NCBI RefSeq assembly: GCF_015832195.1
Contig: NC_052046.1
Span: 36,050,911 to 36,114,910, forward strand
Source: Motacilla alba alba
Taxonomy: Eukaryota > Chordata > Aves > Passeriformes > Motacillidae
Direction of reading: 5' to 3'
Length of the DNA: 64,000 bases
In this document: positions 804-62,773 of the stretch, one piece after another
Layout of the letters: every line of letters begins with the position of its first letter
How positions within the stretch are numbered: the stretch's first letter is position 1
Made by a program: the position numbers and the translations under genes
The notes under the pieces: generated by a model
What the model was told of the DNA's origin: nothing
Database searches by the model: none
What the model saw: only the letters and a program-made list of their open reading frames with translations

Positions 804-1956
804 CTGGCATCAGCTGCGCTGCTGCCTCAGGGGTGGTGATGGGTGCTGCGTGGGGCTGCTGCTGGCTGGAGCTGACCTCAGGCTCGGCGCCCACCGAGGG
901 CGAGCCGGCCACCTCACCACCCGGGGCCAGCTGTGGGATGGACGGGAGGGTCTCCTCGGCGGCCACCAGTGGCTCTTCCTGACCAGGCAGCTGCAGGGCT
1001 GAGAGGGGGATGCTGATGGGCTTCCCAGCGGTGGTGATGGCATTGGAGCTGGTGGCAGGCACCTGCAGGGCAGCCACAGGGCCACCGCCTGCCCCCCGCG
1101 CCGGGGAGGCGAGGGGTCCCCGGGGTGGCCGCTGCGCGGCCATGCGGGGCGGGCCAGGCGGGGAGGCGCAGGGGCGCGGCGGGTCGGGGTCGGGACCTGC
1201 GGCCGGCTGGGGCACGGTTCTGGCGGGTCCCAGGCAGGAGGGCCCAGCTGGGGGCTGCGGCTTGGGCTTGGACATCTGCGTCAGGGACAGGGCCGGCCCA
1301 TCAGCTCCGGCCGTCAGCTCCGCATTGGCCACTATATAGTAGTCCTCAGGGAGCTCCTGCTTGATCTTCTTGAGGAGCACGTCACCGCCGCCCTCGTCGG
1401 CGGGCTGAGCCTGGGCCTGGGCCGTGGCAGCTGGCCGCTTGCGGGGGCCGGTGGGAGCACGGTGCGGGTGTGGCTCAAAGTCACTGTCCTCGTCGGTGAC
1501 AGAGGACTCACAGACCATGTCGAAGAGGGTAGCCTCATCCTCGTACTCCTCCACAGGCTCACCCAGCTCTGACGGCTCGCTGCAGTAGGAGAAGTCGCAG
1601 GAGTCACGAGTGCGGGTGCAATCCAGCTTGGCCTTCCCTGGCCGGCCTGGGTAGCGCTCCAGGGGGCTGGCTTGAGCCTCTGATGGCACCCCCAGCATGC
1701 TGGGACTGTCTGAGTTGAAGCTGCGGCTGTCCTGGAAGCAGACACGCTCCTGGGAACCGGCCCGGCAAGTGGCGGCCAGGGGCCAGTGGTAGGCATGGCC
1801 AGCACTACAGCCCCACATGGCTGTCAGGTTGCCGTGGGCCCCCTCGGAAAGCAGGTGCTTGAGGTTGGGGATGAGGCTGCAGATGGTCCCATGGCTGTGG
1901 GCCCAGCTCACTAGCTTCGAGAGATTTTCGGAGGAGGTGTGAAGGCAGTCCTCCAT
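804..1956 (-). CDS. KIAA1958: KIAA1958, large N-terminal coding exon
   Basis: This exon encodes residues 1-384 plus one base of the next codon. It starts MEDCLHTSSENLSK, which I recognise as the start of vertebrate KIAA1958. Highly conserved stretches come first (about 1-160, including a Trp/His/Cys-rich part and an acidic EEYEDE segment near 136-142). A Lys-rich IKQE sumoylation-type motif follows at 198-201, then DYYIVANAEL. Residues 230-300 are a GC-rich, Pro/Ala-rich variable region, and ISIPLSALQLPGQ is conserved near 314-326. The exon ends at a good donor (CCAG then GTAGGA). KIAA1958 is known as a gene domesticated from a Crypton tyrosine-recombinase transposon; that domain lies in later exons, outside the window. 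Its molecular role is not established. The upstream acceptor is probably CTTCAG or CTTCCCAG, giving an exon start at 1994 or 1982. The ATG is the family start. No frame breaks are seen. Confidence 0.93.
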
Positions 1957-41830: not shown

Positions 41831-42749
41831 AAGACGTCTAAACAGAGCCCTTGAGCACCGGAGGGTCACATTTCCTTCACCACTAGTGTCATCCAGATCG
41901 TGTCTCTCTTATGCACATCCTGGAGCCGTTCTATTCATTTATCATCTCCCAGAAAACCTGTGCCTTTCTCTCCAGTTTCTCACAGTAGCAAAACAGTCAC
42001 AGTATTTTTAGTCGCTTCATTTTTATAGGCCTCAAAGTCTGTGAAGTGAGCAATGGAGTAAAAAAACCCCACACTTTTGACCTCATGCAAAAATCCTTTG
42101 CAGAAGGCAAATATCTGCAATAATTCCTCTGCTATAGCATCTATTGTAGGTCTTGTCCTAACAGTGCAGAGCGGACTTTCTCAATAGTTCAAGATCATCC
42201 AGCCTTTTAAAATAACATCTGATAGGGATGGTCAGTTCATGAAAGCTTTGTGTAACCAGTACAGGGCAGAAAAATACTTTTTATCTCCCAGTCAGAGGAA
42301 AACTTAGTGCTGACTTCAGGTCTTACAGGAAACATGCTGTGCATCCCCTAATAATGGGAGAAGAACTCCTATCTCCTTAGACATCAGGTAATTTAAAGAT
42401 GAGAAAACATGATAAGAAATAAAGTTATCTTAGGTTTGTATTTCACAGTGACACAGGACAGTTTGCAGTCACAAAACAAAACAAAAAAAAAAAAAAAGTG
42501 AAAATTAAAAAAGCTGTTATTGAAAAGAATTTTGGGACATAATTTTTTTTAAGCTTTACAGGAAGTTATTTTAAAAAGCCATAAAAGCCATGTTTGCTGT
42601 TGGGTATTATAATCAACTTGAGTTGTGACTTCTGTAGCAATTACAAAATCTATTGATCTTATACTGCGTCAGCAAAAAATGAGGACTGGTGTTTTAAAAT
42701 AGCATTGCAGTTACATAAGACCAGTATTCTGCTAGTGTTCAAAATTTAA

Positions 42750-42844
42750 CTATAGCAGCATCTTTTTCAGACTCAATGTTAGCATCACATCACCTTTAAT
42801 ACTAGAATTTCCTGGCATGAAAGCAATTAATAGCATTAGCTTAT
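42750..42844 (-). pseudogene. Decayed last exon of a second SCP2-domain gene copy
   Basis: This aligns with the last exon of the intact SCP2 gene at 47674-47786. The acceptor (TTTCATTTTAG) is kept and the frame stays open through KLMLLIAFMPG and IKGDVML, matching KLKPTLAFMTG and IKGNMAL. Nucleotide identity is only about 60-65% by eye. A TAG stop arrives about six codons early, so the peroxisomal SKL tail is lost, and the poly(A) signal found in the intact copy is mutated. I found no recognisable counterparts of the two upstream coding exons between 43.9 and 45.4 kb. Confidence 0.72.
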
Positions 42845-43550
42845 CTAAAATGAAAAAACAGAACCATCAGAAAATTAAAATGATCTGGATATAGGTCATG
42901 CACAGGAAACAGTAATATCCCTAGAGTAAGGTTTTTGAGTGCTTTACAAATTCTGTTTTGGAATATACTTCATAGTTTTATCCACGTGGTAAAAATGCTA
43001 AATCAGAATCTGTGATTAAATCTAATACACTTCCAATATCTGAATCTAATAAAGAATTTCTATATATATGTATCTATCTATATTTCACAATATTGAAGCA
43101 CTTTGCTATAAAGGAGGAGGCTGATGAATTGAAGTAGAATTTACTTTTCTAATCCATCTGTAAAAACATTCTGAGGACTTGATTACAACTATTAACTTAT
43201 TGGATAACTTTTTTTTCATTATTAATCTGTTCTCTTCTGACTCTATTTTGAAGAGTGTTTAAAAAGGTTTGGAGCTGTTTTGAATAGTGATACTTGTGGA
43301 AATCACACTTACAAAGAAGTGTAGCATTTTAACAATATAAAAGTTCTGACATTGTCTTCTGTCCAACACTACTTAATCAGTAAATACATTTTCTGGAATG
43401 AGAAAACAGTCTGTAAGAGGAGCAAATTACATTAGATGCTGAATCCTGTTACTTAATGAAATTATTAGATTACGACTGATTTAACTAAGAAAAGACCATA
43501 TGGCTCCAATCTCTCAGAGGAGATGAAAAAAAATCAGGTTATTTTTCTAC

Positions 43551-43920
43551 CAAGTCCTGCTGGTACAAGCAGTGCACGTTTAGGAGAGGCTGCTCAGGCA
43601 TGTGCAGAGCACAAGTCCAACGCATTGACTGGATTATTTCTGAAGATACACTGGCTGCTAAAATGTTGGTACCTGGTTAATAAAAGCAGTGTAGCCTTTT
43701 GCACTCTTCCTGTTCACAGGACGCAGGAGTGCAGAAAAATCCAAGCAGTTCTTGCCTGCACTCTCCCCTGAGCCACAAAAAGCTGAAAGCTTCTCCAATC
43801 CCAGATCAGAAAGCAAGAAGCCACTCAACTCCCCTGTCAGCAGAGGCTTTTCTGGGAGAGCTTTTCTGGCTTTCCCGGTACCTGCATCCCTTGACAAAGG
43901 CCTTTGTCCCTCACCTCTGC
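43551..43920. repeat. Paralogous flank shared with the intact SCP2 gene intron
   Basis: 43551-43645 matches 47893-47970 (CAAGTCCT.CTGGTACAAGCAGTG and following), and 43899-43916 matches 47971-47987 (GGCCTTTGTCCCTCACCT). Between them this copy has about 250 bp absent from the right-hand copy, with TTGA at both deletion edges. Similarity stops at the position of the exon B splice donor. This is part of the left copy of a tandem duplication. Confidence 0.75.
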
Positions 43921-45443
43921 CCAATGTGATGTGCCACTCAGGGCTGCAAAATATGCATTCACCTGTGTGTGAAGCAGGTTACTCCCCTTCGCGAGAGCCA
44001 TGTTGTGGATGCACATGCAGAGCACTGATGGTCACAGATAGTGAGGAGCAGCTGATAATGGTACAAACCTGGACTAATTTGGCTAGACTTCGATCTCATC
44101 TTTGATGAGATTAACCAGATCATGCATAACCAGATCAAAGTTAATCTCCTATCAGATAACTAAAAAAAAACTTGAGCTGGCAGTTTTTTACTTCCTCCTC
44201 TAATCTGAACACTGACATAAGTTAAGGTTAAATAAATACCCTGGACTGTTCCAGGAAAGCTTGGAGCATGGTTATGGGCAAAAGAGGGGAAAAAGACAAT
44301 CTTAGAGCATACGCAGTACTAATGCTGGTGCAAAAATGTGAAACCAATGTAAGGCCACAAGCAAGGGAATAGAGATGAGTTATTTGAGTAATGAGTAAAG
44401 CTAGATTTCAAACATTCATTTTTATTAAATAAATGGAATTCTGACTAAATAGGATTGTAGTTTTGGGAGTTTCTGTAAGTTGGAACAGAGGCAAATATTT
44501 GATGCGGTAACCAGTGTCCTGCCTGTGCTTATATCATTGCTAAAAAGAAATCCTAAAAAGAAACATTAACATGAATCCTGGTAAATTAAATGTGCTAGTA
44601 GGTAAGTTACTGTAACTTATTAATGAAATTGCCTTGTTTTTCCCATTTTGGTAACAGATATAAAACTTTACAATATGCAGTACAAGTCATTAATATTTTC
44701 ATCCTTTTGGGCTGAAAATGTCATCTTGCTGTGTTAAACAGTCTGTTTGTGGGGGAGTGGTAGCAAATAATGCTGCCTGTAGAAATAGCTGCTCCCAGAA
44801 GATGCTCTGAAGGTAGATGTTTGGCTGTTTAAAACATTGGTAAAAGAAATGTATTGCCATTTGCAAATTCCAGGTCTAAAAAACCCTGCAATCTTCTAGA
44901 ATTCAGTTCAAAGTCCTGATACTGAACAAACAAGTGTTGTGCCAGGCACTTGGTATCTTAATTTCCTGCCACTGAATGATGTCTGCCACAATCATTGCAG
45001 AGGGGCTAACACAAGTCCCTAAAAGCACATGTACTACCCCTGGAGTGGCTCTTGTAGTGCTAGTGGAATTGAATAGACTTCCACTGTCTCCAAGAGTACC
45101 TGGAAGCCTGTACCATACATTCACTGTGGCTGGTGTAATGTCTCTTAAATTAGTAGAAATGTTTCCAATTAAATGAGCTTATGTAAGTTTATACCATGAA
45201 CAAAAAAGGTCTCTCAGATGGAAAAGAAATTAAGTAACTGCAGTTTTTCTTCCTTCCTGAAAATAGTACACTCCAGAGACAGTTTGTTCAATGGCAAGAT
45301 GAGAGGAAGATTCAGCCAAAACCTACTGTTCCCCAAAGACATATTCCTAACAGTGTGAGACAGGTAGTGAAGATTTTTCCCATGAGAGTTAATGGAACTG
45401 AGTCGGAGGAAGCATGTAAACACATACATTACACCCTGCTCAA
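43921..45443. other. Left duplication unit, no gene seen
   Basis: This is where the decayed copy should contain its first two SCP2 coding exons. I see no similarity to them on either strand. The sequence is AT-rich, with a small hairpin (ATCTCATC/GATGAGAT) near 44094-44112. Confidence 0.5.
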
Positions 45444-45750
45444 GGAGGCAGCGGCAGAGCGCGCTGAGCGTGGGGCCAGCGCGGGCAGCCGGGCAGGCGT
45501 CGCTGCAACGCGGCACGGCGGCCTTGCGCAGGTCAGAAGGCCGATGGGCAAAATACCAACATTACAGGGGCAGCTCCTGAAAGAGAAGGGCGCTCCACGT
45601 TCTCCTGCGAGTAGCTGCGGGGTCAGGAGCCAGCTCCGGGTGAATGCCGCACCATCGGATGGAGGGAAGGGCATTTGGGAGAGCGGAGGAGAGTCCTCCC
45701 CCTGCCCCCCAGGACCGTGGTGTTTCCGCAGCGTAGAGAGCGAGCACTGG
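45444..45750. repeat. GC-rich segment, left copy of a near-identical pair
   Basis: About 307 bp, with only about four differences (roughly 98.7% identity) from 50150-50457, 4706 bp to the right in the same orientation. It is GC- and CpG-rich. By position it may be the promoter or 5' non-coding exon region of the dead SCP2 copy. Open frames through it on both strands reflect base composition. Confidence 0.88.
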
Positions 45751-46282
45751 ACTTTTTCACAGCAGCCAGCAGTATGTATGCATTATCACTATCACTTGAG
45801 GTGTTTGGTCTCCAGAGGACTCTGGTTTCAAGTGCTGGATCTTGTTTTCTTCCCATGTTCAGTCTTTCCTTCAGCATGTCCTGGTGTATGCCACCACTTC
45901 TGCTAACCTTCAGCTGCCAGATCTGAGCAGACAGACAGTAATCTGGGGTCTGCAGTCCAGCAGTCAGGGACTAAGTGGTGACCAGCTCAGACACCACGAT
46001 GGGGTAAGAGGAAGACACTGCCCAGTGTAGCCTGAAGCTTTTGGGCACAGCCCCTGGGACTGGTGGCACTGGGAGGTAATTAGGGCACACAGATGTCATG
46101 GAGCTTCAGGCTGAGCACAGCTGCTGAGCGCAGTCCAGTGTGCAGGCTGGACATTACAGCCCGCTGGTGCTTCCCCCTTGCTAGAGCCACCCTTTGCTGT
46201 ACTACCACAATGCCCAACATGGGATAAGGCACCTCCTCTCCCTCTTCCCTCCTTCAGCACCCCCAGCCCCTTGTGCCTGATG

Positions 46283-46850
46283 AGAAAGGAACCTATCTTA
46301 CTATTTTTCAAGATTCTAGAGACTGCAGGGCAGAGGTAAATTAGTTTTCTAACAGAATTCAATTGCCTTACCTCATCAGTATCTGCAAGTATCTGAAGGC
46401 AGGGTGCCAAGAGCATGGATCCAGGCTCTTCCAGTGATACCAAGCAATAGGTCAAGAGGCAATGGGCAAAACTGATGAACAGGAATTCCCACTCAAATAT
46501 GAGGAAGAGTTTTTTTACTGTGAGATTGACTGCACACTGGAACAGGCTGTCCAAAGAGGCTACGGAGACTCCCTCACTGGAGATACTCAAGAACCATCTG
46601 TTCTTAATTCTGTGCAATGTGCTTTAGGACAACACTGCTTGAGCAGGGAGGTTGGACCAGATGACCCAATGTCTGGTCCATTCCAAACTGACCCATTCTG
46701 TGATTCTGTGAACTGTGATGAAAGCAATACAGATGTGACCTTTTCAATGCAGGTCAAACAATTTTAAACAAGCACAGGCTCTAACAAGTTGTAAACTTTT
46801 GAGTTTCTAAGTTAATTAAGAAATAAATCCTAAGTCTTGCAACCTTCTCA
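46283..46850. repeat. Copy of HSDL2 intron 1 sequence, split by CR1
   Basis: 46283-46345 resembles 53622-53690, and 46712-46850 resembles 53700-53850 (shared TAAGTTAATTAAGAAATAAATCCT and GCAATACAGATGTGACC versus GATGCAGATGTGACC). The CR1 element at 46383-46711 interrupts this copy only. It marks the right end of the left duplication unit. Confidence 0.78.
46383..46711 (+). mobile_element. CR1 LINE 3' fragment inserted in the left duplication unit
   Basis: Typical CR1 3' UTR: GGCAATGGGCAAAAC, AGGAAGAGTTTTTTTACTGTGAG, CTTGAGCAGGGAGGTTGGACCAGATGA, ending in CATTCTGTGATTCTGTG. It is absent at the matching place in HSDL2 intron 1, so it arrived after the duplication. Confidence 0.9.
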
Positions 46851-47560
46851 TCTTGGTCAGAAGAGTGAATGATCCAGATTCTGGGCAGGTTTTTTGGCCA
46901 CCATGAATAAACATTTTAAGAGGTTGGTCCATCTGACTTTGCAGATGCTGTCACATGAAGTGGCAGCCCATGTGTGCAAGCGTAAGTGCACTTGGGCACT
47001 TAAAAAGTGGAGACATGCATAATTTCACCAGTGGGCTTTACCAGCCAAATGGAAGGGGAAATGACTGGCTGCAGGGATGTAGGGGGACAGGAAAAGAGAG
47101 AGAGCACATGAGCATGCACGTGTGTCAGTGCACCTTTGCATAAGAAGAAAACCTGCTTATCACTCGGTAAGGCTGTGCAGCCTCAGTGCAATACAGAGGT
47201 ATGAGAACACGTGTAGGTAATAAACTCATGAAAGGAAAGAAAAATTTGAGATAATGATTTACCAGGTGTAACTAAAGCTCTGTTAAACTGACTACATTAC
47301 TTCTACTCCTAAGCCAGCTTAGTAAATTCAGCACAGCACTTCTAGGACTGATCTGCAGGGTGACATTTGCTCTACCCACCTTTTCCATGGGATAGGTGCA
47401 CAATCAGCTACATGGGAAAAAACTCACTTCACATGTCCTATGTTGATCCAGAGGAGCAGAAACAAAGAAAACACCTGGAACCTAAGTGCATTCTTGAGAC
47501 GGAATTAGTTTAATTATGAACATCTTCTTAATGAGATTGAGTTACTTCTTCTATAAAAAT
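46851..47560. other. Spacer between the duplication units, no gene seen
   Basis: Unique AT-rich sequence between the end of the left unit and the 3' end of the SCP2 gene. Nothing coding is recognised. Confidence 0.5.
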
Positions 47561-47573
47561 CTCACATTTTATC

Positions 47574-47579
47574 TTTATT
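47574..47579 (-). terminator. Poly(A) signal of the SCP2-domain gene
   Basis: AATAAA on the minus strand, about 95 nt after the TGA stop of the SCP2 gene, giving a plausible short 3' UTR. The matching site in the left copy is mutated. Confidence 0.65.
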
Positions 47580-47673
47580 TCTTATACTGCATCAGAAAAA
47601 CAAGGACTAAAAATTTAAAACAGCATTGCAGTTATATATTAAAGGCCACTGTTGTGCTAGTATGGGTTTCCCC

Positions 47674-47786
47674 TCACAGTTTAGAATTAAGCTGTGAAAG
47701 CATCTTCTCAAGCTTTATTGCTAGTGCCATGTTTCCTTTAATCCTTAATCTTCCAGTCATGAAAGCCAGAGTTGGCTTTAATTTAC
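47674..47786 (-). CDS. Stand-alone SCP2-domain protein, exon C (last)
   Basis: The acceptor TTTTTAG is followed by GT AAA TTA AAG, completing the Gly codon begun in exon B. It encodes residues 103-139: GKLKPTLAFMTGRLRIKGN, then MALAIKLEKML, then QLNSKL and TGA. This is the C-terminal helix region of the SCP2 fold, which closes the lipid tunnel. The last three residues, SKL, are the canonical type 1 peroxisomal targeting signal. HSDL2 and SCP2 proteins also end in PTS1-type tripeptides, so location and ending both support a real peroxisomal lipid-binding protein. There are no frame breaks. Total CDS over three exons is 420 nt including the stop. Confidence 0.85.
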
Positions 47787-47986
47787 CTAAAAAGAAGAAA
47801 CACAATCATCAGAATACCAAACGAAATGAAAAGAGCCTCGCACATGAAAACATTATGCCACCACAATGAAACGTTAGCATCTACATTGCTACCAAGTCCT
47901 ACTGGTACAAGCAGTGGACATTTAGGAGAGGCTGCTCAGGCATGCTCAGAGCACAAGTCCAACGCATTGAGGCCTTTGTCCCTCAC

Positions 47987-48115
47987 CTGTGAACATCTTC
48001 ACAAAGTCGGCACTCGACATGCTCATAACCACATCAGCTGTCACGGGAGGCTTCCCGAAGCCAGCGCTCCCACCCTTGGTCTTCAGGTCAATGTACCAAG
48101 TGCCTCCACCATCGC
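47987..48115 (-). CDS. Stand-alone SCP2-domain protein, exon B
   Basis: The acceptor CTCTCTGTCCAG precedes GC GAT GGT, and the donor is ACAG followed by GTGAGG. The exon is 129 nt, phase 1 at both ends. It encodes the central SCP2 strand region: DGGGTWYIDLKTKGG, then GFGKPPVTADVVMSMSSADF and VKMFTG. The xDGGTWxxDLK and ADVVMSM..xDFVKMF motifs are those of the HSDL2 SCP2 domain and bind acyl chains in the family. The intron after it is about 200 nt, and the one before it about 506 nt and GC-rich. Confidence 0.88.
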
Positions 48116-48621
48116 CTGGACAGAGAGTGAAGCGAGGTGAGAAGGCAGCAAGGACTGCTGCGCCCTCCCTCTCTGTTGCCCCCGCCAGACGGCCGCGGCC
48201 GTGTGCGTCTGCAGCGGTTCCGTGGCAGCCCGCACGCTGGCGGGCGCTCTGCAAGGAGTCGCCTCCTGTCCCCCGTGACGCCCCAAGCACCACGGGCTGC
48301 GGCCACGGGCAGGAGAGCCCAGAGGCTGCGCTTTGCTCACAGAGCCGCTGGCAGCTGGCGCTTCTGCCGTGGCCCCGAGAGCGCCCTGTCCGTGGCCGCA
48401 CCAGCCCCGTGCGGGGCGGCAGCGCCGGGACAGAGGCTCCGTGCGCGGCACGAGGGACAGCAGCTCCCGGGGCCTGCCCAAGTGGGCCTGCAGCAGGAGC
48501 GGCACACAGAACCGAAGAGGAGCCCGTCTGCTGCGGGAAAGTGCGTCAGCTTCCAAAGTGGTTGTGTCTGAAAACACCCAGGGCCTTTTGCTAGGCCAGG
48601 CTGCACAAGCGATGGGCTTAC
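48116..48621 (-). other. GC-rich first coding intron of the SCP2-domain gene
   Basis: A 506-nt intron between exons A and B with standard GT/AG ends and unusually high GC and CpG. All three frames stay open for long runs on both strands because of composition; these are not genes. Confidence 0.75.
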
Positions 48622-48799
48622 CAGAGAGCTCAAACTCAAAGACACCCTGAGTACTTCTCACGTACTCTTCCGTCACTGCCCCTTGGATAACTCGGAACGT
48701 CTCTGCAACAGGACCCGATGGTGTGGCTGCAGCAGATTCTGTCTTAGCCTTGGCTGCATCTGCTCCTTCCTGCTGGGATCTGCCTAATTTCTTCTCCAT
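48622..48799 (-). CDS. Stand-alone SCP2-domain protein, exon A with start codon
   Basis: This exon encodes residues 1-59 plus one base. The N-terminus is Lys/Ala-rich (residues 1-28). The SCP2 domain then starts, SGPVAETFRVIQGAVTEEYV, continuing to VFEFELS before a GTAAGC donor. The family member I recognise is the C-terminal domain of HSDL2. Here there is no dehydrogenase domain: the ATG has a good context (A at -3, G at +4) and an in-frame TAA stands 33 nt upstream (48832-48830). The likely acceptor (TTTGCAG) puts the exon start at 48838, with 39 nt of 5' UTR, implying an upstream non-coding exon. The protein is 139 residues. An SCP2 domain binds sterols, fatty acids or acyl-CoA. Parentage from HSDL2 is inferred from similarity and location; an older independent SCP2-like gene is the alternative. 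Confidence 0.85.
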
Positions 48800-48838
48800 T
48801 TTGAATGCTTGGGCAGCACCTCCAATAAATTAATTCTT

Positions 48839-50149
48839 CTGCAAAGACTTCTAAACTGTAAATCAATTTACTGCTTTTGTTGCCAACTTTCAGAACTCTC
48901 TAAACAAGGAGAAAGGGTTTAGACAGGAGACATTGTTTATTCTGGTTGAGATGCAAAGCAGAGATTTTCCACAAATCAAGCCAACCAAGGATTAAAAAGT
49001 GAAAGAATTCACACACTGAAATCTACATAAACCTGCCTATCTAATACATAGTTACCCCTGCCTACTGCATAATTGCTTGACTTGTGCAACCATATGCAGT
49101 GTCACTGCACCTTCGAAGGGTCTTTGGGGATCTCTAGTGGTCCCTGCTGGTTGTCTGGGGAGATGCCCCCTACTCCATTTCAAGCAAAGTTCAGTTCAGG
49201 ACGTGCAGAACTTCAGACTGAGAGTCGAAGAAGATGTCATCTTCTCAGACAATTGCCAGGCAGGTCATAAAATACACAAGCTTTCCATAAACACTGAGCA
49301 ACATCTGCTTAACCCGCCTGATAGCATCTTTTTGCATTTAAAAGAGGGGTTAAAGGAGAAAATTATACCATCAACTTCCATCTGGATTAGAGATCAAAAG
49401 AAGGGACAGTGAGTTCTGCTTCAAAACTCAGAGCTTAAAGATCTAGAGAATTCTACTTAAAAAATACAGAGAATTCTTTTTAAACACATCACCTTGATCA
49501 GCATTTTACTTTACCACAGTGAACATGCATCTTTAACAATAAAGGTAGGCTTTTGCAATAAAGGAAAGCTTTTGCAATTTACAAAGCCAATCAAGTGGAA
49601 CAGCCCCTTAAAATGCTAGTGAAGACACTCTTAGGTGTCTTCACTATCAAAAATACTTAGGTCTGTTCTGTGAGTCCCTACAGAATAACCTGCACTAGGA
49701 GCCCAAGGAACTAACACCATCTGTCCCTGCCAGAATGGTCCTAGTGTGACTACTCAAGGAGTATTCCCACCAGAAAGGAACACTTCCAAGCTTGCCTCCT
49801 CTGCTCTGGCCTTATCCCTATTTTGACACTCCTATAAAAGCAGTTCAGCATTCTTAGTTGCCCTTCAATTTGACATAAACCTGATAAATAAACCATAAAT
49901 TCTGAAAAAGCAAAGGCAATACTTTTCTGAAAAAAAACCCAAAACATTTCTGCACACGTGACGGTGTTTTCAGAGCCGACTGCGAGCCTGCAAGATGATC
50001 TCGCTGTCGCCAGGACACTCAGGGCCCAGCTGACAGTGCTCACTAGCACCCTGCTCGCCTCCTCCTTCCGCCTGGCTGCATTCCTCCTGCCCTCCGCGGG
50101 CTGCGGCCAGGCCCGGCCGGGGGCTGGCAGGGAGGCGCAGCCGGCGCAG
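48839..50149. other. Probable 5' intron/upstream region of the SCP2-domain gene
   Basis: AT-rich sequence from 48839 to about 49960, then GC-rich towards the near-identical segment at 50150. A non-coding first exon is expected in or beyond the GC-rich part on the minus strand, but I cannot place its donor with confidence. Confidence 0.45.
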
Positions 50150-50457
50150 GGAGGCAGCGGCAGAGCGCGCTGAGCGTGGGGCCAGCGCGGGCAGCCGGGC
50201 AGGCGTCGCTGCAACGCGGCACGGCGGCCTTGCGCAGGTCAGAAGGCCGATGGGCAAAATACCAACATTACAGGGGCAGCTCCTGAAAGAGAAGGGCGCT
50301 CCACGTTCTCCTGCGAGTAGCTGCGGGGTCAGGAGCCAGCTCCGGGTGAATGCCGCACCATCGGATGGAGGGAAGGGCATTTGGGAGAGCAGAGGAGAGT
50401 CCTCCCCCTGCCCCCCAGGACCGTGGCGTTTCTGCAGCGTAGAGAGCAGAGCACTGG
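50150..50457. repeat. GC-rich segment, right copy; candidate promoter of the SCP2-domain gene
   Basis: About 98.7% identical to 45444-45750. With the adjoining 49960-50149 it forms a CpG-rich block about 1.2-1.7 kb upstream of the SCP2 coding start on the minus strand, a natural place for its promoter. The nearest sequence outside the block is not shared between copies. A shared CACCCTGCTC just outside suggests that about 90 bp was deleted from the left copy. Confidence 0.85.
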
Positions 50458-52759: not shown

Positions 52760-53200
52760 TCTCAGGTTAGCTCGCGTACCCGAGCCCGCCATCCCCGCTG
52801 TGCCCACAGCCCCGGCGTAAAGCGGCGGGGCCCGGCGGGCGAGCGGCCCCAGCCCCGCCCCGAGCGGCCGCGGCGGCTGCGCAGCGGAGCGGCCCCGGCC
52901 CCGGCCCCGGCCCTGCCCCGGCCCCGCCGCGCCGCCATGCTGCCCAACACCGGGTAAGGTGTCCCCGCCGCGCCGGGACGGGGCTGCGCCGCCCTCCGGG
53001 GGCTCTCGGGTCGGGCGGGTTGCGGCCGGCGGCCGCCGGGGGGTTCTCTGGACACCCCCGAGCGCTGTCGCCCTGCGGGGCGGGCGGGACTCGCAGCCGG
53101 CCGAGGGCGAGCAGTTGTAGCGGAGGACACGCGTGTCCGCGCCGTCCTGCGGGGCAGGCCGGCCGAGGGGCCCCGGGCGGCACCGGAGCCCTGGGATGAG
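52760..53200 (+). promoter_or_regulatory. HSDL2: HSDL2 promoter CpG island
   Basis: GC- and CpG-rich sequence around the first HSDL2 exon, with no TATA box near the expected start, typical of a housekeeping promoter. The 5' UTR contains a short GGCCCC hexanucleotide array (52891-52913). The transcription start cannot be fixed from sequence alone. Confidence 0.8.
52937..52953 (+). CDS. HSDL2: HSDL2 exon 1 (start codon)
   Basis: It encodes MLPNT and two bases of Gly6, the conserved N-terminus of hydroxysteroid dehydrogenase-like protein 2, in a GCCGCCATG Kozak context. It ends at the donor GTAAGG. HSDL2 is a peroxisomal short-chain dehydrogenase/reductase fused to a C-terminal SCP2 lipid-binding domain (about 418 residues in human), linked to fatty-acid and cholesterol metabolism; its substrate is not settled. 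Six exons, for residues 1-199, lie in this window; the rest of the dehydrogenase and the SCP2 domain lie beyond the right edge. All six junctions present are canonical and keep frame. Confidence 0.95.
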
Positions 53201-55729
53201 CAGTTCGGCTCGTCTAGGGGACTTGAACCGTGCCTTTTGCAAGGGAAACAATTACTAGAGGAGTTTAATGTAAATTAGGGAGTGTATCAGTAATTTCTTA
53301 CGGAACATTTTTATTAAAGTATAATTACTTATTGCTACTGCTATTGTTGTTGTTGCTATTTTTGGTATTATTTTTTTATTGTTGTATAGTAGTATAGTCT
53401 TCTACTACTGTCTTACCTAGCAGCCAAATTTTCTTCCTGTACAGGATCTTAATTTAGACGTGTTTTCTGCCTTTTGGCTTTTCAGATAACAGCTGGGAAG
53501 ATAAGTTATTATTTGTTCCTGTGTGTTATAAAGAGGATTATTAAATTCCTAGCATCTGTGTAAGCCCTTAAAAGTGTCCCTGATGTGACCTGAAGATCTT
53601 CATTGGCAGTCATCTGTGGTGGGGAAGGAACCAATCTTGTTTTTCAAGATTGTAGAGCACAGATGTGAATTTGATGTTTTCTGTCTTATTAGCAGAAATC
53701 AACTCTAATGGAAATGATGCAGATGTGACCTTCACAATAACGGGTCATAAGAAATTTTAGCCAGGCAGATATGCTTTATGAACTTTAAACTATTGGGCTG
53801 CTAAGTTAATTAAGAAATAAATCCTTAGTCTTGCGAATATGACTAACTAACCACCACCCTCTGACCCTGACCAACCAACTAGTTTTTTACCTGTCAGGTT
53901 TCACATGCATCCAGATCATAGCATCATGTCTTAAATATGAAGCAAAAATACTATGACAGTGTTGAAAGACTTGCATTCACCCACTCCCTTAAGCAGAGGG
54001 CCTGCTTTTCCTACCAGTGTAGCAGAAGTCTCTGAGCTTTTGATGCCCTTCACAAGCTTCTGCTGCAGGTGAACTCTGATTTTCCTGACACCACCTCAAT
54101 GTGCCCTGGTAATGTTTCTAATTCCTTCTTTGTGGCCTGTCTTTGCACCCACTCCCTGTATGACGCTTCTCTTGGGAGCTAAGTCACAAGTTCCCCGCAT
54201 AGCCCTGCTAGTCTCCTGATACACCTTCTTGTCTTCCTGTGTAGAATGCTCCAGCCCCAGGGCTTAGAGCCCCATCAGCTTTTCTCTGCTCTTTTCTCCT
54301 CCAGAGCTGCCTCCCACTGGACCCCATTTACCTCTTCCATGACTAAGGTGAATTGCTGACCTCATACTGGTTGGTTGAAGGTAGAAGCTAGATTCTGGCC
54401 TTACTTCACTGATTTTTACCCTTTGACTATGTATTCCACAGCTGAACTTTCCTCACTCAGTGTAGAAATGAATTTGCACTGTGTGTGACTGAATTAATAT
54501 CAGTAGTTTTTTGTGATTCACTCTTCTGTTCAGATATCTTTCGTCCTGTCTAAGGAAGAAAGCCTTTCTAAGACTCTTTAAGATTTTGCAGATAAAAGCT
54601 GTTTGAAATGGCATCTTCTGGACATGGTTGACTTTCTGAGATCCTGTAGATGCCTAGCCTTGCCTCTTCAGGGGAAGAGGCATCTCTCCCTTTCTGCCCC
54701 ATTCCAATTTTCTGCCTTCTGAAAGCAAACATCCTCCTAGAGAGCACTTAAGAGATGGATGTGCTCATATTAGAGGGGAAAAAACACATCTGAAACCAGA
54801 GGGAGAGAAACAATACTAAGTTTTGCCTGTTCTGAATGGAAAACTAGTGGAAACTCAGAGTGTAAGCTTTTGTAACATTTGTGACGTGACTTTAGTGATG
54901 TGAGCAAAAAGTGAAGTCACTGTTGCACATAGTTTATATGAATTCTTCAACTGAAGTTAAAAACCTGAATCTCCTGGGTTTTGCTACAGTGTTACATAAA
55001 GAAACACGACCCTTATGTGGAGCACTGACACACACTTTCCTTCATATGGAAACCTGTTGTCTAAAAGGCTTTATTATTGAATATGTTTGTGGAGTTAATA
55101 TTTCTCTTTTCAAGAATTCAGTGATACTGAGACATCCTTCTTAGGCTTTAAAACTTGTTAGATTCTCTAAGTTGATTGGACGTGTTTATAGGACTACACA
55201 CAGTTACTGGGAAGCTGTTGAGTATAGAAGATTTAAGAGAAAAATTGCCATTTCTGAAAAGAAAGCTTTTGGCATTTGGTGTGGTTCCAGACTTGGTACT
55301 TTACACCACTTTGAGACATCAGTTTTTTTGTGTTTAGAGCACTGTGATTAATAGATTACCAAGATCTGTGTAGGTGTGTTGTCCTGTTGGAAACTGGCAT
55401 TTTGTTTTTACAAATTACTCCTTTTCCATTGTTGCAGAACATAACAGCTCTGTTGTAAAATACTGTGTTGGATCTTTTTATAAAAAGGGAGAAATGTAAC
55501 TGGGTAACCTTCTTTAGAGTGTTTGCAAGCTCCAGGTCTGGTACTTTTCTGCAGCTGTAGCCATCCCTTTTGTGTTCTCAGGCCATTTTCTTAAAAGGAT
55601 GAAGGCATTTTTCTGGTTGGGAGACTGTGCTAATTACATTTGCCCTTAGAGTCTGATAAAAATCAAATTATTAACAGCTTCTGCTTTATTCTTCTCTTCT
55701 TTACTGTCCGCTTCCTCCTTCACCTTCAG
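52954..55729 (+). other. HSDL2: HSDL2 intron 1
   Basis: 2.8-kb intron. Its segment 53622-53850 is the partner of the duplicated sequence at 46283-46850. No other gene or repeat is recognised; short open frames (for example 54911-55144) have no family similarity. Confidence 0.8.
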
Positions 55730-55893
55730 GAAACTGGCAGGATGCACTCTCTTCATCACAGGCGCGAGCCGGGGCATCGGCAAAGCCATTGCTTTGAAAG
55801 CTGCCAAGGATGGTGCCAACATTGTGATAGCTGCCAAGACAGCTGAGCCCCATCCTACTCTTCCAGGGACTATCTACACTGCTGCAGAAGAAA
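55730..55893 (+). CDS. HSDL2: HSDL2 exon 2 (cofactor-binding motif)
   Basis: 164 nt, acceptor CACCTTCAG, donor GTAAGT. It encodes residues 6-60: GKLAGCTLFITGASRGIGKA and on to IYTAAEE. TGASRGIG (16-23) is the Rossmann-fold glycine motif that binds the NAD(P) cofactor in short-chain dehydrogenases. ANIVIAAKTAEPHP is a conserved HSDL2 signature that follows the second strand. Confidence 0.96.
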
Positions 55894-56302
55894 GTAAGTT
55901 GTAACAAATATAGGTGCTCAGCTGGGTGTATACCCTTGCTTAATTACCGTACCAGAGTGGAAAAATGCATAGACTCTTAGTTCGAGTTCACCTTTACTAA
56001 AATATGCTTAGTGCTTCTCTTGCCTCCCAGGAATACTGTAATGTTATTGTAATGAAGATGGATGTGTGTATATAAATGTAAAAATGCTATGCTACTTGAG
56101 ATGTATGAAATAAACATTTGCAGTGTTAAGATAATGTTTTGGCTTCCCTGTTCCTCATATGACCTGTTAAAAGGTCACAATTTGAGAGTGATTTTCAGTG
56201 CCATCTTGAAGCATGTCATTGCTTGAGAGGTTCTCAGAAGGTTCATGTTAGTTGTCCCATCTGAGAGCAAATTCTTAAATGTTTGATTTTTTAATTGTAC
56301 AG

Positions 56303-56401
56303 TTGAAGCAGCTGGAGGAAAGGCTTTGCCATGCATTGTTAATGTGAGAGAAGAACAGCAAATCATTAATGCCGTGGAGAAAGCTGTGAAGACTTTTGGA
56401 G
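56303..56401 (+). CDS. HSDL2: HSDL2 exon 3
   Basis: 99 nt, acceptor TTGTACAG, donor GTAAGT, phase 1 at both ends. It encodes residues 61-93 (IEAAGGKALPCIVNVREEQQ, then IINAVEKAVKTFG), the region around the third strand of the Rossmann fold, where the conserved acidic segment contacts the adenine ring in the family. Confidence 0.96.
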
Positions 56402-56545
56402 GTAAGTTAAGGCGTGGGGGAAGGCAGACATAAACAGGCAGATTGTTCAAACAAAGAGAAAAAAAGAACTGCCTGCCTTATTCATGTTTGTTTGTTTGTT
56501 TGTTTTCTTTAAATGCTAATGTGAAATGGCTTACTTTAAAACCAG

Positions 56546-56660
56546 GGATTGATATTTTGGTGAATAATGCAAGCGCCATCTCTTTGACGGGCACTTTGGA
56601 AACAGCAACGAAGAAGGTCAATCTTATGATGGATGTCAATGTACGAGGAACCTATCTTAC
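56546..56660 (+). CDS. HSDL2: HSDL2 exon 4 (NNAS motif)
   Basis: 115 nt, acceptor AAACCAG, donor GTAAGT. It encodes residues 94-131, starting GIDILVNNASAISLTGTLET. NNAS (100-103) is the structural and catalytic Asn motif of classical short-chain dehydrogenases; LMMDVNVRGTYLT follows. Confidence 0.96.
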
Positions 56661-57412
56661 GTAAGTGCTGAGAGAAGGAGGCAAAGCAATTGTAACAGAA
56701 TGTATGATGTTATTTCAGTTTTTCTGAGAAATTCTGTAGCTGTCTTGCTGCCCTAGAATTTGAGTGCAGATATTCTGCATGTGCTCACAGGAAATTGCTC
56801 AGTTATTGGTCAACTGATTTGAATTAATATTTCCAAGAATTATTTGCTAGTCGGAGTAAACAGAAACCTTATTACTGAAGTCATTAAATGTTCACAAGCC
56901 CCTCCATGCATATAGAAAGAAAAAAGTCATTTGTTTCAAATGAAGCTCCAGCTTGGCTCTATTAAATGCTGATGCTCTTTCATTTCAAACAAAATTACTA
57001 AATTTTTGCATACATCAAGTCAATATCTTACTTGTCAGTTTTCTTCTCATAAGCTTCTTTTTCATCTTGAGAAATGTTGTATAACTCACCATACTTAAAA
57101 GAGAAATGTTAAAGGTGTACCTTAATGATCCAAAGTGTTCTCCACCTACTTTCAGCTTATCAATTCTATTATTTATTTAAATGAACATACCAAGATTTGA
57201 TTTCACAATTCCTGGGTTCCTTATTTTGCTCATGTTTGGAGGTGGATTAAGCAGGTTGAATCATCATTACATTTACAGGATGTCATTTAAAGCACTGTCT
57301 TAAATAAAGACTTTGATTTTAACAGGGTTTATAAAAAAGCCTGTGATGATGGAGATTCTCTAAATCCAGTTGTTGCTTGGTCTGTTCAGAAGGTTTTGTA
57401 TCAAAGTATTAC

Positions 57413-57480
57413 CACAGAATTATAGAATAGTTTGGGTTAGAAGGCACATTTAAAGGTCATCTAGTCCAATCCTCCAATGT
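57413..57480 (-). mobile_element. CR1 LINE terminal fragment
   Basis: Reversed CR1 3' terminus: CACAGAATTATAGAATAGTT, then AGAAGGCACATTTAAAGGTCATCTAGTCCAA. Only about 68 bp remain. Confidence 0.85.
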
Positions 57481-57977
57481 AAAACAGATTGATTGTCATT
57501 CTCCTTTGTGGTGATCAGTCTGGTTGCCAGCTCGTCATAAATTTCTGAATGGATTCAACTGTATTGCTGTGGCAAGTTCCATCTTCTCCTCCTCACCCAA
57601 TAGCAGCAGTGATTTTCTTGATGTTACATCTAGCTATTCCAAATTAATGGGGAATTCCTAAAGTGTATTTTTGGTCCTTTTCTACCTTGAAAAGATTAAA
57701 AATGGAAGGGGAAAAGCATAAGAAAAATCAACACCTCTCAAGGGAATGGTCTTTGTCATTGTTTTTGTAATTCTCAATTGAGAAAACCTAGTGAAGCATT
57801 TTTGCCCTTTTTTTCTCCTTGCTTTGTATATTGATTCTGATTGTAATTTGTAGAGATCTACTATCTATTTAATGTTCAGAAAATTTCAATAGCTTAAAAA
57901 AAAGGTGTGAATTTTTTGCCTGTGTAGAGGTGGTACTAGGAGAGATTCCCCAGCTTACAGAGTACACCTGTTGACGT

Positions 57978-60843
57978 AGGATCATGGAACTGGTAAATCG
58001 TGGAATGGATTGGGCTGAAAGAAAGCTTAAAACATTGTCTACTTCCAGGGGCTGGAAGAGACCTTAAAACATTGTCTGCTTTTAAGCCCCCACCATGAGC
58101 AGAGATCTCTCCCATAGACCAGGTTGCTCAGAGCCCATGCAGCCTGGCCTTGAACACTTCACTGGGTGGGGAATCTTAGTTTCTTAGAACAGTTTCTTAG
58201 GGAACTTGTTCCAATGCCTTACCACTCTCAGAATAAAGAATTTCTTCCTAATACCTAATCTCAACCCCCACTCTTTCAATTTAAAACCATCCCCCCTTGT
58301 TCTCTCACTCCATGCCCTTGTGGATAGTCCTTCTCCCACCTTCTTGTACCCCCTTTAGTTACTGGAAGGCTGCAGTAAGTTGACTTCAGAGCTTGCTCTT
58401 CTCCAGGCGGAATAATTCTGAGCCTGTCCTTGCAGGACAGCTGTTCCATCCCTCTAATCAATTTGATCCTCTGGAGTTACCTCAAAAGTCCAATGTCCTT
58501 CCTGTTCTGGGACCTCAGTGCTGGATGCAGGGTTCCAGGTGGGGTCTCACCTGAGTGGAGCAGAGGAACAGAATTCCCTCCCTCTCCTGCTGCCCACGCT
58601 GCTTTGGATGCAGCCCAGGACACTTTTGGCTTTCTGGGCTGTGAATGCTCATGGCTGGGTCATGTCCTGCCTCTCACCCAGCAGCACCCCTAAGTCCTTC
58701 TCACAGGGCTGCTCTCGATCCGTTCACCCCCAGCCTGTGCTGGTACTGGGAGTGTCCTGACCAAGGTGCAGCACCTTGTTCCGGGTTTTGTTAAACCTCA
58801 TGAGATTCCCATGGGCTCAAACTTGTCCAGATTCCTCTGGATGGCATCCTGACCTTCATTGGTGTCTACAGCACCACTCAGTTTGGGATCGTCTGCAAAT
58901 TTGCTGAGGGTGCACTTGATCCTTTCATCTATGTCATTGATGGAGACATGGACTAACTCTGTTCCCAATACCCACACAGGAGAGACAGCTCTTGACCCTG
59001 ATGTCCATTAGGACTCTGAGCCATTGACCACTACTCTCTGGATGCTGCTGTCCAACCAATTTCTTATCCACTGAACAGTCTGCCCATCAAATCTTCTGTC
59101 CCCAAGTTATATAGAAGGATGTTATGAGGAACTTCTCTAAAGCTATACAGATTAAATGACATCTGTAGTGCTACCCTTGACCTCTGGTGTGGTCCTTCCG
59201 TCATAGAAAACCTTTTGGTTGATCAGGGAGAACTTGCCCCTGGTAAAGACCCTCTGACTGTCCCAAATCACCTCCCTGTCCTAGGACCACCTCCTGATTC
59301 TAGGAGGATCTGTTCCATGACCTTCCCAGGCACAGAGGTGAGGCTGACAGGTTGGTAGTTCCTGGGGTTCTCCTGTCCATCCTTTTTAAACATTGGTATG
59401 TTTCCCTTGTTCCAGACATTTGGGTCTTTACCGAATTCCACAATTTTTCAGATATGGAAAGTGACTTGGCAGCCTATTCCCTCAGGACTGTGAGGTGCAC
59501 ATCATCAGGCCCCATGGACTTGTGTATGTTCAGGCTCCTCAGATGGTCAGAATCCTCATCTTCATTTAAAGTGGGAAGCACTTTGCTCCCTCAGTCCCCA
59601 TCCTGCTGTCCATTTACTTAATAGGTGTGGGAAGAGAAGTTGCCATTGAAGACTGAGGCAAAAAATGTTATTGAGCTCCTCAGCCTTCTTGTCATCAGTT
59701 GCTACCAGCATTCCAGCCTTGCTTATGCCAGGGTGTATGTGTATACACTTTCTTTGCCTTCCTTTTCTGACTGACAAATCTGTAGAAGCCCTTTTTGTTA
59801 TCCTTTGCATCTCTTGTAAAGTTCAGCTCCAGCTTCACTTTGGCTTTCCTCACCCCAAAGGTGTACAACAAGTCTGTGCCCCTGTATTCTTCATAGAATA
59901 CTTTTCCCCTGTCTCCACTGGCTATGCATTTGTTTCTTGTCCTTTAGTTTGACCAGCAGTCCTTGTACTCTTTCATTCCTGTCTCTTGCCTTCCTTGCCA
60001 TTTCTTGTGCCATTGGATCACTAGCTCTTGTGCTCTGTGGAAGGTGTCCTCAAAGATCTGCCAGTTCTGTTCTGCTCCCTTGTTTCTGAAAGCAGCGTTA
60101 CAAGGGTTCCTACTGACTAACTCATTGAAGAAGTGGAATTTTGCTCTTCTGAAGCTCAGGGCCCTGGCTTTGCCCTTTGCCTCACCCATTTCCCGCCAAA
60201 CTGTGAACTCCACCTGTGCATGATCACTGCAGACCAGGCTGTCTCCCATCGTGGTGTCCCTGATTAGCTCCCTTAGGTTTGTGACCATCAGGTCCAGAAT
60301 GGCATCCCTTCTGGTAGGGTTGTTACCTGGGTTAAGGAGTTATGCTCCATGTATTCCAGGAATCTCTCGGATTGCCTACAGTTTGCTTTGCTACTTTTCC
60401 TTCAGACACTGAGGTGTCTGAATCCTCCCAGTAGGACAAGAGCCTGTGTGATCCTTCCTGTAGCTGGAGCAGGAAGGTCTCATCAATAGGCTACTCTTGG
60501 TCATGGACCTGTAGTGACACCAAGCACAAGATTCCCTTTGTTACCTCAGTCTCTGTTTCTTACCCACAGGCTTTTAACTGGTCATTGTTGTTCTTAAGTT
60601 CACACGTTGTTCTTCACAGATGGCTCATCACACTCAATGCACTTCTTGACGTAGAGGGCAGCCCCTCCATCTCTCCTTCCCTTGTCCCTTCTGAATAGGC
60701 TGTAACCATCAATGGCTGCAGTTGAGTCATGGGATTTATCCCACCAAGTTTCAATAATGGCAGTTTAAGTTTCTTGGTTCCTATGCATTAAGAAATTGAG
60801 GCATCTGTTAGTGAACCTGCCACTGAAAAGAGCTGAGGCCCCA
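57978..60843 (-). mobile_element. Long CR1 LINE with broken ORF2
   Basis: Reading from 60843 leftwards, the order is part of the endonuclease domain (CSDHAQVEFTV near 60240), the endonuclease-RT linker (FRRAKFHFFNELVSR; DDKKAEELNNIF), RT motifs ([20 protein letters not shown] near 59280-59370; HNILLYNLG; a decayed form of the FADDTKLSG catalytic motif near 58880-58900) and the 3' UTR. ORF2 is broken by many stops and frameshifts, and the FADD site itself is altered, so it is dead. ORF1 and the 5' end are missing. At 2.9 kb it is the longest transposon in the window. Confidence 0.88.
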
Positions 60844-61621
60844 GGACAGTTAAGGAGGTGGTAAATTACTTACTTTACTACTGTGGTGATTTTGCTATTG
60901 AAGGTGTGTAAGTTTTTCCCTTTGTGGCTGAGAGTATGCGTGGGTCCTGTTGGAATATGTGAACAGCTGGTCACTAATGTGGTGATGTTTTCACCCTGTG
61001 AAGCTTGATTAAAAATTCTCAAGCAGAGGTAAAATATAAACATGTGCCCTAGTGCTAGAAGTGAAGTCAAAAAGACAGTTTCTGTAAAGTAAAAGTTCCA
61101 ATTTACAGAGATGTGTAAATTCAAAGTAGAATTCTCTTAGAAGAGAATAGGGTTTCAGTTTTCTTTGGAGTACTTGTAGTAGCATACTGCTATGCAGTAT
61201 TATTTTTTCAACATTGTTTTAAAGAAGAAATGCGTATGGGACCAGAAGAAAATATTTTTATGACTACATGATGCTCTGCATTGTTAATTTTGATTGTTGC
61301 CTTAGAGTGTTTTGTTGCTGCTACCAGAACTATTACAAGGAGATTATGGCTTCTGAGTATCTGGAAAAGTAGCTTTAGTCAAAGCTGATGCACTGGTTGG
61401 AGAATGTAGTCTGGTTTTCAGGAATGAATACTATGCCTGAGATGAGTGATCTGCAACAGATTTTTTTTTTGTTGTTCTTTACATCAGTTAAATACCTGAT
61501 ATGAGAAGAGGCTTTGTCTTGGGCTGTTCTGAAAATACTGGTCCACTAGTATTGTTTTTACTGTAATTATAGGCATTCCATAAAATAAGAGGCGACTGAC
61601 ATGTCTGAATCTATCTTTCAG

Positions 61622-61725
61622 GTCTAAAGCATGTCTTCCCCACTTGAGAAAGAGTAAGAACCCCCATATCCTGAACCTTAGTCCACCGATGAATCTGAAT
61701 CCCATGTGGTTCAAAAATCATTGTG
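61622..61725 (+). CDS. HSDL2: HSDL2 exon 5
   Basis: 104 nt, acceptor TATCTTTCAG, donor GTGAGT. It encodes residues 132-166: TSKACLPHLRKSKNPHILNL, then SPPMNLNPMWFKNHC. NLSPP (150-154) holds the Ser region preceding the catalytic Tyr. The frame joins cleanly on both sides. Confidence 0.96.
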
Positions 61726-62674
61726 GTGAGTAGCTTTCAGAGCCTTTGTTGCTATTTTGTGAGAAACATGTAAGTACCTGGTGAAGTGTGCAGTAGTTGC
61801 AGTGCAGAATGCCAGATCTCATGTCTTTAGCCCTGCATACAGACTGGCACTAACGGTTCCTCAAAGCATTTTGTACCTGACCTGCAAGAAATTGTTTTGT
61901 GGGAAAATGTAGGGCAAGTTTCCAGGCATCATCCATCATTTTTGTTTTCAGTGTAAGTCTGTGATTTTCTATGGGAATTGTTAGGATTACATATTTTCTG
62001 CTCCAAATAGAGACTGAAACCCAAAATTTATTTTCTTACCGATTCATCTTTTTTTTTTTTTTTTTTTTTATGGATATAGCTCAGTGTTCTGTTTTAATGT
62101 GGAAATTATTTTGAGGTGGAAAAAGAACTTTGTGTTATCTTGAAGTTAGTGTTGCTGATTTTAAAACTGTAGCGAAACCTTACCATTTTGGACACTTGTC
62201 ATGTTAAACTCCAGCAAGTTCCAGTTCTTCCCCCAAGAAAGTTTCCATTCTCAAAGTAGATAGGTAACAAGGATATAGAACTCCTGTTCCCCACTTTTTT
62301 TGTCTATAGGATTCTAGTTTGATCCTTAACAGCTACTATGCCTTAGGCATCTTAAAAAAAATTGATCGCTCTTGTCAGTGTAGCCTGTATAAAAAGCATG
62401 ACAAAATCCACCATGCAGCTAGGCTTAAACTTTCTTTTTGGCAGAGCATGTGTAGTTTTTATTTTGTTTGCAGTGAAAAGAAGATAGACTTCAGTTTGTA
62501 GCTGATGGAGATGGCAGGTAGAAGGAAAAGATTTTGACTCTAGGAAAGTACTGGTTTTTTCTGAAAGCCATGAATTTTACATGTGAACTAATTATCTGTT
62601 TTATCTTCCTCTCATAATTAAAATTAGATTTTACATAGAATCTAAACTTTTTGTTTTTTCACTTCTTATCTTAG
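61726..62674 (+). other. HSDL2: HSDL2 intron 5
   Basis: 949-nt AT-rich intron with a T21 run at 62049-62069. No gene or recognised repeat. Confidence 0.8.
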
Positions 62675-62773
62675 CTTATACCATTTCTAAATATGGGATG
62701 TCCATGTGTGTCTTGGGAATGGCAGAAGAATTTAGAGGAGAAGTTGCTGTCAATGCTTTATGGCCTAAAACAG
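62675..62773 (+). CDS. HSDL2: HSDL2 exon 6 (catalytic YxxxK motif)
   Basis: 99 nt, acceptor CTTATCTTAG, donor GTAAAT. It encodes residues 167-199, AYTISKYGMSMCVLGMAEEF and on to NALWPKT. Tyr168 and Lys172 form the YxxxK active-site pair; the matching Tyr168 is the proton acceptor in human HSDL2. Continuation exons (rest of the dehydrogenase, then the SCP2 domain) are not in the window. Confidence 0.96.

Follow-up and report, generated by a model that had tools for sequence, protein, structure and literature searches.

An inverted spare copy of the SCP2 exons of HSDL2 in Motacilla alba, probably an inversion remnant kept parent-like by gene conversion

Within the window (the whole stretch of 64,000 nucleotides of Motacilla alba alba DNA analysed here), three minus-strand exons in front of HSDL2 form a complete frame for a stand-alone SCP2 domain, and the question raised by this locus is whether these exons constitute a gene of their own. 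The initial annotation took them for a new gene, a small peroxisomal lipid carrier split off from its parent. The evidence given below makes it probable, in our judgement, that the spare exons are instead one arm of an inverted repeat, which was left as a remnant when HSDL2 was flipped, was kept like the parent by gene conversion, and was refilled recently in the wagtail line. The positions of the main features are listed in Table 1.

Table 1. Features of the HSDL2 locus in window coordinates
Feature	Position	Strand	Remarks
INIP	about -60 kb	+	located with a probe protein
KIAA1958 exon	1435..1956	-	located with a probe protein, 88% over 174 residues
Alternative last exon, (D)FEAYKNEATKNTVTVLLL then stop	41980..42038	-	homologue used by gene models of Melospiza, Onychostruthus and Prinia
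Decayed exon 3 of ancient copy, KLMLLIAFMPGNSSIKGDVMLTLSLKKMLL then stop	42735..42845	-	66% DNA identity to HSDL2 exon 3 region
Old second intron of ancient copy	43540..43913	-	resumes right after arm B; matches P0004, P0068, P0075
Arm B of inverted repeat	43914..48796	-	partner is arm A, 69593-74476 (+), C31:36120503-36125386
First 1,295 bp of arm B	47502..48796	-	exons 1-3, both introns and 3' end; zero differences from arm A
Exon 3 of spare copy	47674..47786	-	tail NSKL and stop; identical to HSDL2 70603-70715
Exon 2 of spare copy	47987..48115	-	identical to HSDL2 70274-70402
Exon 1 of spare copy	48622..48799	-	homologue of HSDL2 exon 9; 48796-48622 within arm B, ATG (48799-48797) just beyond it
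Diverged older segment close to the 5' side of exon 1	48829..48877	-	85.7% to HSDL2 intron 8 (69111-69159)
Possible upstream exon, codes MEVDGIIFSFNPSFKCKKMLSG	49318..49381	-	GC donor; matches first exon of P0007 (Onychostruthus)
Older diverged part of copy	49556..49936	-	92.1% to HSDL2 intron 8 (68705-69069)
HSDL2 exons 1-6 (dehydrogenase part in window)	52937..62773	+	
HSDL2 exons 7-11	about 67482-70715, past window end	+	
PTBP3	121-141 kb	+	located with a probe protein

The spare exons and their predicted product

As proposed in the initial annotation, the three exons, spliced in phase, give a frame of 139 codons and a stop, with canonical junctions throughout (GTAAGC and GTGAGG as donors, CTGTCCAG and TTTTTAG as acceptors), and an AATAAA lies about 95 nt 3' of the stop. 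The product gave 83.6 bits against the Pfam SCP2 profile (PF02036; curated cut-off 21.3; E 1.3e-23) over profile positions 12-100 of 101, which places it in the SCP2 family, and its residues 43-134 align with solved SCP2 structures. At its C-terminus it carries SKL (PTS1), and judging from the identical tail of HSDL2 this SKL is HSDL2's own and not a gain. Translation of the copy would be predicted to yield a peroxisomal lipid carrier of the SCP2 type, its binding domain being that of HSDL2. The short-chain dehydrogenase domain is absent from the copy, which is therefore not a full HSDL2; the dehydrogenase exons detected in the window all lie on the plus strand as parts of HSDL2, which starts at 52937 (+), 4.1 kb from the spare copy and on the opposite strand, in agreement with the arrangement first described. 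The product gave no further match in the rest of the window at E <1, though a decayed exon 3 lies at 42845-42735, and no match was obtained between Pfam profiles and six frames from the window.

HSDL2 was traced from exon 1 to the last exon across the window and the adjoining sequence, and its own SCP2 exons were located on the plus strand of the same contig, about 21 kb further along. A whole-genome search with the product yielded at least six matches at E <=0.001 (eight scored candidates), the decayed exon 3 not being among them; all were on contig C31 and formed two sets. Copy and parent are physically separate, occupying two places on this contig. The doubt that the spare exons might be the terminal exons of HSDL2 misplaced by an assembly inversion is answered in part by the finding of HSDL2's own set in the same assembly, which rules out misplaced terminal exons.

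The three spare exons and both introns match HSDL2 DNA exactly from just after the ATG, the splice phases are the same as those of the last three HSDL2 exons, and the best named matches are HSDL2, in support of the family assignment first made. The nearest public full-length protein is P0108 (Motacilla alba HSDL2), of which the last 138 residues equal the product minus its first M and the dehydrogenase part matches the HSDL2 exons of the window; the E in FEFELSG, common to the product and P0108, is present in two of 154 HSDL2s. Origin from SCP2 or SCP2D1, the candidate source genes other than HSDL2, was ruled out by the identity with HSDL2. Since the exons are identical to those of HSDL2, dN/dS on the copy carries no information.

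For the start of the frame, the earlier description stood with respect to the context of the ATG (A at -3, G at +4) and the in-frame TAA upstream (48832-48830), but the ATG adjoins the left end of the repeat arm, within the exon that starts GAAQEKK in HSDL2, and is not clearly the designed start of the spare copy. The 5' end of the copy, GCATTCAAAATG, is not present in HSDL2 exon 9. The possible upstream exon (49381-49318) joins in frame through its GC donor and a weak GAG acceptor, giving a possible product of 167 residues.

Several of these features bear on the reading that the copy is a working new gene, with its own start, coding for a small peroxisomal SCP2 lipid carrier under selection. 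Such a gene would show the complete frame, the splice sites, the SKL, the AATAAA and the strong Pfam match described above, and an extra last exon common to the predicted proteins P0007, P0054 and P0073 of three songbirds, one of which includes the upstream exon as well, hints at spliced transcripts. We nevertheless regard a working gene as unlikely, because recent copying accounts for the identity to HSDL2, exon 3 is decayed in 36 bird proteins, and the first exons are unlike between species (P0003, P0007, P0015 and P0032).

The inverted repeat and the older copy beneath it

Alignment of arm A with arm B gave 4,885 columns with 99.713% identity, 11 mismatches and three gaps, bearing out the claim that the last three exons of HSDL2 were duplicated in inverted orientation. 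The spacer of 20.8 kb between the arms carries HSDL2 exons 1-8, and the HSDL2 promoter is outside the repeat. None of the 14 differences between the arms falls within the first 1,295 bp, for which the probability is 0.013 under an even spread. The right end of arm B at 43914 reads CAGAGG, followed by TGAGGGACAAAGG; at this junction only AGG is in common, whereas the left side is homologous at exon 1. From the divergence of 0.2% the refill of the arm looks recent, and at flycatcher-like rates this divergence would correspond to about half a million years.

Outside the arm, homology to HSDL2 continues on both sides at a lower level (Table 1). On the right, the old second intron is followed by the decayed exon 3, and in the predicted proteins P0004, P0068 and P0075 (snowfinch, crow and manakin) the same old-intron sequence comes after spare exon 2. 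Together, the old homologous stretches extend from 49936 to 42657 and correspond to HSDL2 68705-70809, as would be left by an inverted duplicate at the other breakpoint of a staggered-break inversion. Because the flanks on both sides of the arm are diverged (92%, 86% and 66% identity), the arm is read as placed within an older copy; on this sequence comparison the spare copy itself is old, and the 4.9-kb arm is an insertion within it. The divergence of 8% in the left flank suggests an age younger than a pre-Neoaves origin would imply, unless conversion reached the flank.

These remains bear on two rival readings. The 99.7% identity of the arms is what a plain recent inverted duplication in the wagtail, with neither an older copy nor gene conversion, would leave, but such an event is barely credible in view of the decayed exon 3, the old intron and the diverged intron-8 flanks around the arm, and of the decayed-exon-3 copies in 29 passerine and seven other Neoaves proteins; a single recent duplication was ruled out by the old remains around the arm. 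An artefact of assembly, by which the 3' part of HSDL2 was duplicated into the place of the copy, also has to be considered, as assemblers can err on arms 99.7% identical and 20.8 kb apart. It appears very improbable: the arms differ at 14 points, no N is present in the window or in the 314-kb stretch around it, and at its right end the arm passes back into unrelated old sequence through no more than a shared AGG, a junction that confusion of repeats would hardly yield, while the surrounding old copy is present in the proteins of other birds.

Two repeated elements were observed in the same region. A GC-rich element of 320 bp is located upstream of the copy at 50138-50457 (-) and again in each arm, at 45432-45750 and 72640-72958, with identities of 97.5-98.1%, and the predicted copy protein P0070 of Ficedula reads through it. 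A 135-bp stretch at 46711-46840, in the downstream flank of the copy, is 76% alike to 53701-53834 in HSDL2 intron 1 in the same direction, and is probably an old repeat.

Related copies in other birds

In the public protein search, 106 proteins were matched by the 139 residues. The decayed exon 3 was identified in 36 bird proteins, 29 from passerines and seven from other Neoaves (two penguins, a heron, a bustard, a kingfisher, a barbet and an eagle), with both exons 1 and 2 in 30 of them, exon 1 only in four and exon 2 only in two; by name, none of the 36 is from fowl, ducks or ratites. A 37th protein of this class, P0036 from a sturgeon, was misclassified and was dropped. Eleven short bird proteins (P0003, P0005, P0006, P0008-P0014 and P0016) keep an intact exon 3 and were assumed to be HSDL2 fragments, of which some may be intact spare copies. 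One of them, P0003 of Mergus octosetaceus, is a predicted stand-alone SCP2 protein of 164 residues, with an exon 3 that is intact and a first exon of its own that looks GC-rich; it may be either a fragment of HSDL2 or, in ducks, a spare copy that is intact. Automatic annotation labels the copies in other birds 'HSDL2'; the claim that no gene is described at this place held for the literature, in which a search, not exhaustive, found no description of this HSDL2 duplication, but not for the annotation, in which copies already bear the parent's name. With extra 'HSDL2' entries in many birds, dN/dS and orthology tests would be misled.

The relation of each copy to its parent was examined in 18 pairs made by hand, 13 from the same species (one being the window) and five from the same genus or family. 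The pairs compare proteins from automatic gene models, include 14 of the 36 decayed-exon-3 proteins, and contain three partners (P0005, P0009 and P0014) that are 104-residue pieces assumed to be HSDL2. Over exons 1-2, no HSDL2 among 154 was closer to the copy than its partner in any of the 18 pairs, ties being allowed: for the Hirundo copy, 14 HSDL2s, including four from Hirundo itself, match equally well (42 of 43 residues), and a tie is also found in Onychorhynchus. The Prunella pair (31 columns) and the Hirundo pair (43 columns) each cover one of the two exons. Rare letters, defined as those present in <=10% of the 154 HSDL2s, are common to copy and partner in 16 of the 18 pairs, the exceptions being Hirundo and Haliaeetus. 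In exon 3, by ungapped placement, only 10-20 of 29 residues agree in the 14 non-wagtail pairs with this exon, which is decayed in all 14. An earlier run on untrimmed sequences gave 17 of 18, the swallow copy ranking its own HSDL2 third, and in a shuffle test on looser, earlier rows the observed mean was reached in 0 of 20,000 shuffles.

At the protein level, each copy is thus at least as close to its partner HSDL2 as to any other in 18 of 18 pairs, as expected for concerted evolution, and gene conversion over exons 1-2 would be a likely source of this pairing pattern. The possibility that short bird gene models re-use HSDL2's own exons was considered; the counter-evidence is the window itself and the same-species pairs, in which copy and partner are on contigs of unequal size in seven of 13 (the partner being a 104-residue piece in three of these seven), of equal size in four, and not comparable in two. 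The copy and partner of Hirundo are neighbouring entries on one contig. Intron 9 of HSDL2 (69768-70273; mirror 48116-48621), which separates the counterparts of spare exons 1 and 2, has a GC content of 0.70 (range for the other nine introns 0.31-0.45) and a CpG ratio of 0.72, while exon 2 has a GC3 of 0.67; the GC-rich intron is likely to be a footprint of biased gene conversion.

The proposal that a new gene has separated from its parent was not supported by these data, as the wagtail DNA is identical to HSDL2 and, in the other birds paired, exons 1-2 track the HSDL2 of their own or a closely related species while exon 3 has decayed. Because conversion from HSDL2 can by itself keep exons 1-2 open, function does not follow from the open frame, and the spare set is more likely to be a converted duplicate without a conserved role. 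The locus is an example of an open, spliced and well-targeted frame, the good shape of which tells nothing about function.

Gene order, proposed history and known systems

Along the contig the order is INIP(+), KIAA1958(-), the copy(-), HSDL2(+) and PTBP3(+). In mammals we take PTBP3 and INIP to be on the minus strand and HSDL2 and KIAA1958 on the plus strand. The order in cattle and human is PTBP3, HSDL2, KIAA1958, according to the available parts of PMC5070821 and PMC8282839. Read backwards, and on the mammal strands assumed above, the bird order agrees with that of mammals in everything except the direction of HSDL2, and the spare exons retain the mammal direction beside KIAA1958. As HSDL2 alone is reversed and its end is mirrored, the arrangement is read as the remnants of an HSDL2 flip. 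With mammals as the group compared, the flip is placed on the bird side, but it could instead have taken place on the mammal side. Inversions with inverted duplications at both breakpoints, made by staggered breaks, are described for Drosophila mojavensis in the available part of PMC3355041. Beside the KIAA1958 exon, a 111-bp stretch is present twice in tandem with 100% identity (2176-2396).

The history that we favour would begin in the ancestor of Neoaves, where staggered breaks would have turned HSDL2 around and left its 3' end in two copies, one at each breakpoint. Conversion of exons 1-2 by the parent would have been ongoing since the flip, and exon 3 would have escaped it and decayed. 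In the lineage of the wagtail, the DNA would then have broken close to the end of spare exon 2 and been repaired with HSDL2 as the template, the repair copying a stretch that begins at exon 1 and reaches about 3.7 kb beyond the HSDL2 end, and rejoining through the shared AGG. By such a refill the wagtail copy would have regained exon 3, and with it the SKL and the poly(A) signal; the presence of exons 1-2 in the old wagtail copy before the refill is presumed from its relatives. If correct, this history would account for a one-gene inversion between mammals and birds, would show a decayed copy recovering its missing exon from the parent, and would provide a natural test of the reach of conversion tracts, exons 1-2 having been homogenised and exon 3 lost.

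Both arms hold the last three exons intact and identical, and an exchange between them would therefore leave a full HSDL2. We raise tentatively, as a doubtful possibility, that exchange between the arms reverses HSDL2 exons 1-8 with a full-length gene either way, giving a recurrent, coding-neutral inversion on the Z chromosome; if this is true, the spare exons matter as the landing pad of an inversion and not as a gene of their own. Contig C31 (75.7 Mb) is probably the Z. In the available part of PMC3886922, HSDL2 is Z-linked in sparrows, and the cline of an HSDL2 marker between the Italian and the Spanish sparrow is among the steepest. Exchange of the arms would predict recurrent inversion at a locus that serves as a marker of the species barrier in sparrows, and genotypes of this marker may mix two loci if it falls in the duplicated exons.

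Among known systems, the C-terminal SCP2 domain of HSDL2 is the closest, exons 1-3 after the ATG, the introns, the SKL and the 3' end being identical; the spare copy differs in that it is inverted, lacks the dehydrogenase half, has an old diverged 5' flank and is without the HSDL2 promoter. SCP2D1 and SCP2, which are proteins with an SCP2 domain, resemble the product in its single SCP2 domain and its size, but the wagtail copy descends from HSDL2. In the palindromes of sex chromosomes, the arms are reportedly kept alike by gene conversion. The wagtail repeat shares with them the near-identical inverted arms and the location on a chromosome of Z size, but this is probably the Z and not the non-recombining W, the arms carry part of a gene, and the spacer of 20.8 kb is the parent gene. 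With the Drosophila mojavensis inversions, as presented in the available part of PMC3355041, the locus has in common the reversed segment and the end mirrored at the other breakpoint; the ends of the bird duplicate differ in that they still look homogenised, at the protein level and across Neoaves. Human inversions between inverted repeats, with arms of 1.6-24 kb and spacers of 5.1-226 kb, are recurrent to a high degree according to the available part of PMC3961182, and the wagtail arm of 4.9 kb and spacer of 20.8 kb are within both ranges. Each kind of event is known from these systems, and what seems to be new is the proposed combination, in which the remnant of a flip would have been homogenised since early Neoaves, as the proteins suggest, would have decayed, and would have been refilled from its parent.
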